A stretch of DNA of 43,430 nucleotides from a virus: the IMG/VR virus record IMGVR_UViG_3300034159_000046, positions 1 through 43,430 of that record; one strand, given 5' to 3'. Below, one piece after another: positions 14,017-19,828 of the stretch. Positions within the stretch are counted from its first letter, which is position 1. Each line of letters begins with the position of its first letter. A model generated the notes under the pieces. That model ran no database searches. It had not been told where the DNA came from and worked only from the letters and a program-made list of their open reading frames with translations. A program made the position numbers and the translations under genes.

Positions 14017-15408
14017 CTATGCTTTTCGTAAATATACGTGCCATATTTTATCCACTAATTCGGGACTTGCCCCAAGCTGTCTGCCTATTGTGTAAGCGGT
14101 TTCTTTTTTTCTTGCCCCTCTGGCTATTGCTAATAAAACTTTATTAATTTCCGCTTTATTTCCCGAATTAATATTTATTAAATTTCCGTCTTTTTCCTTT
14201 ATTGGTTCCCTAACTGCGGCCCTTTTCATAAATACATAGCCGCAAGCGGGACAAATCATATCGAATTTTAATACCGGGCGCTGGCAGTCTGGACAGCGTT
14301 TATATAAACTTTCATCTTTTTCTTTTTTCTTTGGCGTGTCCAATGTCCATTCGTATGGATCGTCTGGCAATCCGTGGCGCTGATAATTACTGACGAAATC
14401 AAGGATTATAGCCCGCTTTCCCGATTCTTCAATGGCCGATAATCTTCCTTGTTTGGTGCTTAAATCATGGCCCTTCGCCCAATCAGCCCGTAAAACCCGT
14501 CCGGTATGTTGGCGCTTAATAACCATTGATTCCGTAGGCCTGGCGTCAATTTCAACTGAAATTCCTTTTATGTCTACACCTTCCCCAATCGCATCGCAAC
14601 TTGAAATCAATTTATTATTCATAATAGATTCGTGTAAATCATCTTTCATTTTTGAATGAACGGCTTTCATAGGATAGCCCGCTCCGGTAAAAATTCCTGC
14701 TATACGTTCGGCGTCTTCAATATCAACGCCAAAGCTAATTCCTGGTTTGTCTTTTCCGAATTCCTTATATGATTTAACGAAGCTTGAAATTCTTATTTTC
14801 TTTAAGTCTTCGCGCGAAAAATCACCCATTGAATGATGAAATTTAGAAGTGTCCAATTCTTCAGGTATAAAATAATCATAATTAGCTAAATACCCTTCGT
14901 CAATAAACCATTTAACAGGTGGAGAAACTAACATATGCTCATACATAGAAAGCGGCGTACCATCAGGGCGCTTTGGCGTGGCACTTTGTCCGAATAGTTT
15001 TGAATTTGGCCAAAATTCAAGCGGCTTTTTGAACATATTAGTCGTGCTATGGTGGGCCTCTTCATAAAGTAAATAACCTGGCTCATCTAATAAATGGTAC
15101 CTTGTCGATAATGATTGAACCGATATTACTTGTACCCTATATCTAACAAATGGAAAACCGGGGGCTATAATTCCATGCCTTATGCCTATTTCTGTCAAAT
15201 GCTCAGAAAATTGGCGCATTAAAAGTTTGCTATGGGTTAAGAAATAAATTGGCCTTGATTGGTTCGACAATGCCCAATCAATAAAAGATTTAAATACTAT
15301 TGATTTTCCTGTACCTGTTGGCATTTGGTTTATTAAAGCCCGCCCGCCATGGGTGAAAAAATCTATAGCCAAATCTCGTGCATTTATTTGGAAGTCAAAA
15401 AGATTCAT
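14017..15408 (-). CDS. SF2 DEAD/DEAH-box-type helicase
   Basis: 463 residues. Motif I is MPTGTGKS (~29-36), motif II YEEAHH (~134-139, a DEAH variant), motif III QSATP (~155), and motif VI QHTGRVLRAD (~300). Near ~385-400 lies a four-cysteine zinc ribbon, CPDC...CPAC, followed by a basic C-terminal domain. The order matches phage RecG/UvsW/type III-like SF2 helicases that remodel forks or recombination intermediates. It overlaps the small gene before it by 14 bases and follows the structured-RNA locus. Confidence 0.85.
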   Translation of the reverse strand: MNLFDFQINARDLAIDFFTHGGRALINQMPTGTGKSIVFKSFIDWALSNQSRPIYFLTHSKLLMRQFSEHLTEIGIRHGIIAPGFPFVRYRVQVISVQSLSTRYHLLDEPGYLLYEEAHHSTTNMFKKPLEFWPNSKLFGQSATPKRPDGTPLSMYEHMLVSPPVKWFIDEGYLANYDYFIPEELDTSKFHHSMGDFSREDLKKIRISSFVKSYKEFGKDKPGISFGVDIEDAERIAGIFTGAGYPMKAVHSKMKDDLHESIMNNKLISSCDAIGEGVDIKGISVEIDARPTESMVIKRQHTGRVLRADWAKGHDLSTKQGRLSAIEESGKRAIILDFVSNYQRHGLPDDPYEWTLDTPKKKEKDESLYKRCPDCQRPVLKFDMICPACGYVFMKRAAVREPIKEKDGNLININSGNKAEINKVLLAIARGARKKETAYTIGRQLGASPELVDKIWHVYLRKA

Positions 15409-15685
15409 TTATATAGTCTATAATTTCTTGAACGCTTTTTAATGTTTTTTGCGACTTATCAATTGGAGTTTCTTTATATGTATTGTGTAATACAAAAATT
15501 GATATTATTATTAATATCCCGATAATTGCCAATATTATTTGTATTATTTTTTTAAAAGAGTCTTTTACTTTTTCGTTAAAAATTTTCTTTTGCTCTTTTT
15601 TCCCTGGATTAACAAAGTCTATTTTATCTTCTACGCAATCCCAACATTCATAGCCTAAAATTTGTGACGTCGGTTTATTTGTCAT
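15395..15685 (-). CDS. Small single-pass membrane protein (96 aa)
   Basis: AGGA lies seven bases before the ATG. The N-terminal ~35 residues contain CWDC, possibly a metal or redox pair. A hydrophobic helix at ~47-67 (IIQIILAIIGILIIISIFVL) is followed by a helical C-terminus. The ATG comes only 12 bases after the terminator-like hairpin at the end of the structured RNA, so expression may depend on read-through of that terminator. No promoter of its own is visible. Confidence 0.65.
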   Translation of the reverse strand: MTNKPTSQILGYECWDCVEDKIDFVNPGKKEQKKIFNEKVKDSFKKIIQIILAIIGILIIISIFVLHNTYKETPIDKSQKTLKSVQEIIDYINESF

Positions 15686-15696
15686 TTGTTAATCCT

Positions 15697-15732
15697 AAAA
15701 AATCCGGCCCGCAGCTTAGGACCACGGACCGG
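15697..15732 (-). terminator. Rho-independent terminator at the 3' end of the structured RNA
   Basis: Minus strand: CCGGTCC pairs with GGGCCGG around a 15-base loop, then ATTTTTT. It lies 12 bases before the ATG at 15685, so it either ends the RNA or acts as an attenuator for the helicase operon. Confidence 0.7.
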
Positions 15733-15813
15733 AAAGCAATCTCTGGTATCGTGTCCGGATACCTCTTATTAAAGAACATGACGCGCCTAAATATCCAACG
15801 GATACCGGCCAAT

Positions 15814-15874
15814 CTACGGTATCGGGGATTTGAACCCCGCGCCAATTGGCGTATTCCAGTGCAAGCACTTAAAT
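15814..15874 (-). other. tRNA-like acceptor and T-arm element inside the structured RNA
   Basis: Minus strand: ACGGTAT pairs with ATACCGT (7 bp), and the T-arm CGGGG-TTCAAAT-CCCCG directly precedes the 3' acceptor strand, exactly as in tRNA. But only ~33 bases separate the 5' acceptor strand from the T-arm, about eight fewer than needed for D plus anticodon arms. They form AGTGC/GCACT and GTATT/AATAC hairpins and a CGCCAATTGGCG palindrome instead. No CCA follows. It is not a functional canonical tRNA. Confidence 0.55.
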
Positions 15875-16252
15875 ACCGTACGCAGCTTAAAGCTAAGTTG
15901 CCACTCGATAAGGCACGCCCCGTTTGACTGGCCAGCGTGCCAAGTGGATTTTTTCGCGCCAATTGCTGGACCCGCAGCAACGGGATTGACCGGCTATTTC
16001 ACCTTAACCACATGGTGTTAGACTTTTTTGCAGGGCGGCCGGTAATGGCCCGGCGGCGTGGCTGGCTATGATTGGCACGCCCACGCTACATTATCCGCAA
16101 CTTTGCGGCCTTCGCCCCGGAGGCATTAGGCTTGCACTGTCCAAACCAGTGCGCCAGATTTTATCTGCCCCCTGAATCCTGATTTAATTTGGCAATTTTC
16201 GCATGGACTGCCTAACCAAACAATTGAAACCATTTTCTTGCCTCTTTCGCTA

Positions 16253-16281
16253 ATTATCATGCCTAATGCGGATCGTGTCAA
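16253..16281 (-). promoter_or_regulatory. Leftward promoter of the structured RNA
   Basis: TTGACA (16281-16276), 17-base spacer containing CGATCCGCATTA, GATAAT (16258-16253). Predicted start is near 16246. It is the one strong member of the family not followed by a start codon, consistent with an RNA product. Confidence 0.75.
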
Positions 16282-16293
16282 GCATCAGGAGAT

Positions 16294-16320
16294 AAAAAAG
16301 GCCAGCATTTTTGCATGGCC
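16294..16320 (-). terminator. Rho-independent terminator after the primase operon
   Basis: Minus strand: GGCCA...TGGCC with an inner GCA/TGC, followed by TTTTTT. It lies 14 bases after the stop of the small gene at 16334 and just before the RNA promoter, insulating the two units. Confidence 0.75.
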
Positions 16321-16333
16321 TTTCCCGCAGTTA

Positions 16334-16513
16334 TTAGGCGCTGGCGGTCTTGGTAATGGTAAACGATACCTTGGCAGTACCATCTTCGTTTACCACGGCT
16401 TTAACTTCACTGGCACGCTTTGCGCCAGCGGCGGAAATTACTGCATCCAAAACGTCCTGCTTTGACAATTCGACGTCAACGGTTTTGGAAAGGGAACCAA
16501 TAACTTTCTTCAT
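16334..16513 (-). CDS. Small protein (59 aa), HU-like N-terminus
   Basis: The start at 16513 is chosen for the GAGG site upstream. Residues 1-25 (SLSKTVDVELSKQDVLDAVI) and a following helix look like a small alpha/beta fold, with a Thr-rich strand at the end. The opening loosely recalls the first helices of HU-type proteins, but the length is far short. It is the last gene of the primase operon, directly before the terminator. Function unknown. Confidence 0.6.
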   Translation of the reverse strand: MKKVIGSLSKTVDVELSKQDVLDAVISAAGAKRASEVKAVVNEDGTAKVSFTITKTASA

Positions 16514-19203: not shown

Positions 19204-19244
19204 AACAAATAGCCCTTTGCCCCTATTTTATGCTTAAAAGCGGG

Positions 19245-19277
19245 CCAGCGGTCGGATAAGGGCATTCCAACCGCTGG
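19245..19277 (-). promoter_or_regulatory. Strong hairpin in the primase mRNA leader, possible attenuator
   Basis: Between the predicted start (~19310) and the TTG at 19203, the minus strand has CCAGCGGT and ACCGCTGG (8-bp perfect stem, 17-base loop) followed by CCCGCTTTT. GCGGGC further upstream can pair with GCCCGC over the 3' arm, giving two exclusive structures. This could be an attenuator or mRNA-stability element. Confidence 0.45.
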
Positions 19278-19316
19278 TTATATTGTTTTCTGACCGTCGC
19301 CAGCCCGCAGCCGTAG

Positions 19317-19345
19317 ATTATTGCATAGCGTGCGCTATACGTCAA
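19317..19345 (-). promoter_or_regulatory. Leftward promoter of the primase-helicase operon
   Basis: TTGACG (19345-19340), 17-base spacer with TAGCG-CA-CGCTA (a 12-base inverted repeat), AATAAT (19322-19317). The spacer keeps GCGCA where others have CCGCA. Unlike the leaderless members it has a ~107-base leader. Confidence 0.6.
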
Positions 19346-19793
19346 TAGATAGAGATTTTTTACTTTTATCAAGTGTATTTCTCTAATCATGTCCGAAAAA
19401 AAAGTAAACTACATATAACGGTATTTTTTAATGATAAATTAATTAAAAAACGATTTACTTTTTTAATAGTGACAGATAGCTCTGTCATTTGTGACAGGCT
19501 AGTGACAGATAGTACTTTCTTCTAATTATATATATTATATATAGTTACAAGATTAGTGACAGCAGTGACAAGTAAAACAAACTTGAGTCTACTAGAGAAG
19601 AAAAGTAGAAAAGTAGAAAAGTAATACTTTTTCAGTTTTTTACTTTTTCACTCTATACAAGTCAAGTTGAAAAATGCTGTCACTCCTGACATTTTGTTGT
19701 TAAATTGTTTTATTATAAGTAATTAGACCTGTCACGCTATCTGTCATTCGTGACAGCGCTATCTGACACGGAAATTTTATAATAAATGACATA
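19346..19793. other. Intergenic region with CTGTCA palindromes and AT-rich repeats, candidate origin/operator
   Basis: No gene is visible. Two nearly identical palindromes, CTGTCA-tttg-TGACAG (19482-19497) and CTGTCA-ttcg-TGACAG (19741-19756), lie 243 bases apart. Additional TGACAG/CTGTCA copies occur at 19470, 19503, 19557, 19677 and 19729, several flanked by GATAG or CTATC. AAAAGTAG is repeated in tandem near 19597-19623, and TTTACTTTT-like runs occur at several points. The position between divergent replication and packaging operons, next to the primase gene, fits an iteron origin or multi-operator control region. Confidence 0.55.
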
Positions 19794-19822
19794 TTGACAT
19801 ATAAAAATATGTAAATTATCAT
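19794..19822 (+). promoter_or_regulatory. Leaderless rightward promoter for the packaging operon
   Basis: TTGACA (19794-19799), 17-base spacer, TATCAT (19817-19822), then six bases to the ATG at 19829. One CTGTCA palindrome ends 38 bases upstream of the -35 box. Confidence 0.7.
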
Positions 19823-19828
19823 TGTGTC

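Follow-up and report, generated by a model that had tools for sequence, protein, structure and literature searches.

We found that the minus strand of the window, by which we mean the whole 43,430-nt stretch of phage DNA analysed here, carries a predicted RNA of about 550 nt which we hold with high confidence to be a real, conserved noncoding RNA gene, and which very probably represents a new phage RNA family with two known members, kin in kind to GOLLD and ROOL and a member of neither. The second RNA lies in IMG/VR contig 3300034965_000047 (hereafter L029), which was reached through the topoisomerase of the window. The RNA unit and its neighbours are, in the order of transcription:

16334..16513, minus strand: upstream neighbour, a 59-aa protein (p59), kept in L029 (39%)
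16294..16323, minus strand: terminator-like hairpin, as read from the sequence, which closes the p59 gene and sets the RNA unit apart
16253..16281, minus strand: sigma-70-type early promoter, TTGACA-N4-CCGCA-N8-GATAAT, with a predicted start near 16246
15697..16246, minus strand: predicted noncoding RNA, about 550 nt, with promoter and terminator, without conserved ORFs, and with 3'-third homology and synteny with L029
15697..15733, minus strand: intrinsic terminator, stem 15733-15703 and then T6
15395..15685, minus strand: downstream neighbour, a 96-aa membrane-type protein, with its SD directly past the terminator T-run
14017..15408, minus strand: helicase, the second gene past the RNA in the window and in L029

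A first nucleotide profile match in L029 was weak (E = 0.0048). The identities between the two records in primase (65%), topoisomerase (67%), terminase (68%) and p124 (78%) indicate that L029 is a genuine relative of the window phage. In both, the genes run primase - p85 - p59 - RNA - small membrane gene - helicase - p140 - p124, with a lipoprotein-like 122-aa gene in L029 instead of the 96-aa membrane-type gene, and the matching slot of L029 is occupied by a gene-free RNA of about 615 nt with a promoter and a terminator. L029 was the sole relative found in protein-based and DNA-pattern scans that took in all eight parts of IMG/VR, the other pattern matches being coding or chance, and likewise when 87 records of related phages, and 80 contigs with topoisomerase relatives, were searched with models. 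Two scans of genome contigs found no relative, and a two-sequence covariance model gave nothing above noise in 53 other records. Among named phages no DNA similar to the window RNA was found, blastn with either RNA returning nothing beyond chance matches and isolated ones to tRNA-Ser.

The RNA promoter (TTGACA-17-GATAAT, 16281-16253; 11/12 matches) belongs to a phage-wide family. Seven copies of TTGACA-N4-CCGCA without a mismatch stand in the window, each of them on the minus strand, against 0.03 expected:

35170, 29521, 25745, 22773, 16281, 11375 and 8877, minus strand: TTGACA-N4-CCGCA copies, with a GATAAT-like -10

Several genes behind these promoters have their ATG only 6-9 nt past the -10 and are apparently leaderless. 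A promoter of the same family stands at the RNA in L029 (L029 16211). A second gene-free gap, of 625 nt (window 19204-19828), lies between divergent early operons and has promoter-like sites on both strands.

A coding function of the segment was rejected, since none of its ORFs matches L029, although the flanking genes do match. One ORF was considered separately:

16126..16233, minus strand: possible ORF of 35 codons, read from the sequence, at the 5' end of the RNA and with an SD-like AGAGG; about five codons in L029

It is probably not a gene, because it is unconserved in L029. The GC content of the RNA segment is about 0.52, compared with about 0.39 for the window, and in the segment we counted seven local hairpins with a perfect stem of 5 bp or more, dinucleotide shuffles having 2.9 (2/200). 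The minimum free energy of the whole RNA has a z of -2.87, which comes from the tRNA-like domain and the terminator; the first 366 nt alone (z = 0.07) are no more stable than shuffles, so that folding energy by itself is no proof of structure in the core. The first-pass annotation had described a GC-rich, gene-free segment with its own early-type promoter, its own terminator and at least nine stems, all of which agrees with these results, the number of stems being a fair one when the seven hairpins, the terminator and the longer-range helices are counted. It had not given the strand, and three things described below had escaped it, namely a tRNA-like domain, a boxA and a connection with the downstream genes.

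The sequence likeness between the two RNA units exceeded all 300 shuffles at the promoter and in the 3' third and did not in the core, the 5' two thirds of the RNA having no significant likeness to L029. The 3' third contains, upstream of the terminator:

15815..15880, minus strand: degenerate tRNA-like domain with an 8-bp acceptor, UACGGUAU/AUACCGUA
15767..15777, minus strand: boxA, GTTCTTTAATA, a perfect match to GYTCTTTAANA and a putative NusB/S10 site
15745..15763, minus strand: 3' hairpin, GGUAUC-CGGACAC-GAUACC, with a hairpin of other sequence at the same place in L029

In a search over 1.19 Mb, a covariance model made with window 15880-15697 alone recovered L029 16665-16854 with 39.4 bits (E=3.7e-7), the next best match having 11.6 bits (E=2.5), and it gave no other match in 34 full records. 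In the resulting alignment 98.6% of the pair cells were paired and nine base pairs were changed on both sides, compared with 0-2 two-sided changes when the structures were slid by 1-3 columns as controls; these counts lean towards the window structure, because the sequences were aligned by fitting them to the model made from the window. ARAGORN independently calls the homologous domain of L029 a tRNA-Ser. When the window and L029 were considered as a family, homology at the same locus together with compensatory changes was found for the 3' third, and weakly for the core junction.

The tRNA-like domain has one 4-bp arm, a variable-arm-like CGCC-AAUU-GGCG and a canonical T-arm (CGGGG-UUCAAAU-CCCCG), and it has neither an anticodon loop nor CCA. 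ARAGORN and Rfam found no tRNA in it, the acceptor and T arm being present and the anticodon arm not canonical, and its best Rfam match, to mascRNA, stayed below the threshold with 21.6 bits and E=0.1. Five of the eight acceptor pairs are changed on both sides in L029, where the homologue is a tRNA-Ser(UGA) predicted by ARAGORN (L029 16665-16748). Earlier in the same L029 RNA, ARAGORN predicts a tRNA-Val(UAC) at L029 16346-16417, which scores 48.2 bits with the Rfam tRNA model. Both read as unusual in sequence, the tRNA-Val having A33 in the anticodon loop AATACGT and the tRNA-Ser a very short D loop. The window domain is probably the remnant of a once fuller tRNA that is still present in L029, and its probable role would be that of a stable module for folding and processing, with RNase P-type recognition. 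The sequence CGCGCCAATTG is repeated at window 15838-15848 and 15955-15965, and the copy in the tRNA-like domain includes the self-complementary CGCCAATTGGCG, by which dimerisation of the RNA is conceivable; this element is unconserved in L029.

The boxA consensus is GYTCTTTAANA (PMC5725501), and L029 has a second perfect match, GTTCTTTAAAA, at the aligned place. The motif occurs once in the 45.5-kb L029 record, at the RNA, and twice in the window, where the copy in the RNA is about 35 nt upstream of the terminator stem. The terminator heptaloop UCCUAAG (15721-15715) is identical in L029, and its stem has compensatory changes. The loop region GGUCCUAAG (window 15723-15715, and the L029 terminator) is identical to the highly conserved 23S rRNA segment that includes the I-CeuI site, which may be chance; the terminator loop as a mimic of the 23S rRNA GGUCCUAAGG segment was rejected, one short match being too weak. 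In another record, L118, a phage tRNA array (2341-2470) has the boxA-like sequences AGTTCTTTAA and AGTTCTTTGAA around its tRNAs.

Within the core, a junction was chosen after inspection:

16032..16118, minus strand: predicted four-way junction with the closing stem GGGGCG/CGCCCU and three hairpins, partly conserved at L029 16480-16565 (86 nt)

With a model of the window junction alone, the L029 counterpart was the best match in a syntenic stretch of 4.9 kb (17.6 bits, E=0.0012), a score which is at noise level, and not significant, in a background of 1 Mb. Three of the six pairs of the closing stem are changed on both sides in L029, and we regard the four-way junction as likely. The structural alignment of the whole core to L029 was not above shuffles (40/100), and a MAFFT alignment of both RNAs at full length, which misplaces the 5' half, was left out of the structure work. 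What we say of core structure is provisional, as it rests on two sequences.

None of the Rfam 15 families reached threshold with the window RNA, the only matches being mascRNA, Thr_leader and eeev_FSE, all of them below it (E up to 10). The GOLLD and ROOL covariance models gave no match to the window RNA or the L029 RNA at the gathering threshold or at E up to 10, those of OLE and HEARO gave none to the window RNA, and neither ARAGORN nor Rfam found a tmRNA in it. The first-pass annotation had proposed a structured phage RNA of no known class, perhaps a divergent member of ROOL or GOLLD, and had called for these searches and for a search for compensatory substitutions in related phages. The lack of an Rfam match and the syntenic relative with its two-sided changes bear out the structured RNA of no known class, and divergent membership is not supported, neither class having appeared. 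The likeness in kind turned out to be stronger than that annotation knew, because the L029 RNA has predicted tRNAs, the window RNA has a tRNA-like domain and tRNAs are sometimes found inside the GOLLD linker (PMC12286853).

Like the two RNAs described here, GOLLD is a large structured noncoding RNA of phages and prophages with a conserved 3' and a variable 5' region, and it is often near tRNA islands (PMC12286853). The present RNAs are shorter (about 550-615 nt, GOLLD often exceeding 800), have the tRNA-like domain just before the 3' domain, and combine a boxA with an early promoter. A 14-mer nanocage is a feature of GOLLD; the window RNA is known here from sequence alone. ROOL is also a large structured RNA encoded by phages, often near tRNA islands (PMC12286853), whereas the window RNA has a tRNA-like domain and a boxA and is without a covariance-model match to ROOL. 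The mascRNA/menRNA family (MALAT1) likewise has a reduced tRNA-like fold, close to where a long noncoding RNA ends, but this is an animal family and the likeness is one of convergent tRNA mimicry and not of membership. Lambdoid nut/put and boxA leaders similarly have a GYTCTTTAANA boxA upstream of an intrinsic terminator; in the window, however, a 550-nt RNA has the boxA at its 3' end, and no boxB or N-like protein was identified.

We propose that RNA polymerase would start at the early promoter and make a multi-domain RNA, consisting of a 5' part, the four-way junction, the tRNA-like domain and the boxA-bearing 3' domain, in this order. At the terminator with the conserved loop most polymerases would stop and set free a stand-alone RNA, and some would read through, perhaps with NusB/S10 on the boxA, feeding the small membrane-protein gene and the helicase. 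Probably the RNA is a product and at the same time the leader of the helicase genes, because the terminator stands directly before the ribosome-binding site of the next gene and, in the window as in L029, the stretch from the RNA to the helicase has no further family promoter. The promoter family, the terminator, the synteny, the homology and covariation of the 3' third and the boxA match are shown here; transcription, release of the RNA, its processing, Nus binding and its role are inferred. Against the proposal speak the 5' two thirds, with their lack of significant likeness to L029, of excess stability and of a significant structural alignment. As a whole, this mechanism of an early structured stand-alone RNA with read-through seems to us about evenly balanced between right and wrong.

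The main rival is that the RNA serves mainly as a long, attenuator-bearing 5' leader, in which the terminator and boxA would set the entry of polymerase into the membrane-protein and helicase genes, and the tRNA-like domain and alternative pairings would act as a sensor or switch. The position of the terminator directly before the SD and ATG of the next gene in both phages is also expected of such a leader and thus speaks against the stand-alone reading; the absence of another family promoter before the helicase fits it too, as do boxA, an antitermination or regulatory element (PMC5725501, PMC10250234), and several mutually exclusive helices, such as that of GAUACCG, the 3' strand of the tRNA-like domain, with the downstream CGGUAUC. 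However, the first gene is not the same in the two phages, a leader of 550-600 nt holding whole tRNAs would be unusual, and host boxA complexes are known mainly for acting against Rho and not against intrinsic stops, and we consider a pure leader possible but rather doubtful.

More clearly improbable is that an ordinary two-tRNA unit, as in L029, has degenerated in the window and that the remainder is spacer. The predicted tRNA-Val and tRNA-Ser in the L029 unit, which recall phage tRNA clusters or array units, the lack of an anticodon loop in the window domain and the shuffle-like stability of the core would fit such a decay, but the pairing of acceptor and terminator has been kept through two-sided changes, conservation extends to the promoter, the boxA and the loop of the terminator, hairpins are in excess (2/200) and the junction is partly conserved. 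The tRNAs of L029 are themselves odd, and the window differs from phage tRNA clusters in having a single degenerate tRNA-like domain, a long structured core and a conserved terminator loop. A role as decoy or reservoir for host factors directed at tRNAs, such as tRNA-cleaving anti-phage nucleases, with the tRNA-like parts as bait, agrees with the early promoter and with the discussion of tRNA loci as anti-defence elements in two papers (PMC13096335, PMC12803027), but it is very improbable, as the window domain, without an anticodon loop, would be no bait for anticodon nucleases.

A stand-alone RNA with leaky read-through is favoured over a pure leader or a decayed tRNA cluster, because the RNA has been kept while the first downstream gene was exchanged. 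GOLLD and ROOL are thought to act as stand-alone particles or scaffolds. Tentatively, the RNA of the window may belong to a new class of large phage RNAs with covalently joined tRNAs or tRNA-like domains and a boxA for Nus factors. Such an RNA would work as a stand-alone particle or scaffold and engage the host machinery of translation or transcription early in infection, and in the window version the tRNA would have given up decoding and kept its acceptor and T-arm for structure.

To our knowledge, phages have so far yielded very few large noncoding RNAs, whose functions have yet to be settled. If the present reading is true, a further, unrelated large phage RNA with an early promoter, a boxA and a tRNA link would suggest that the link to tRNA is functional and not incidental, and the RNA unit offers concrete elements for mutation.
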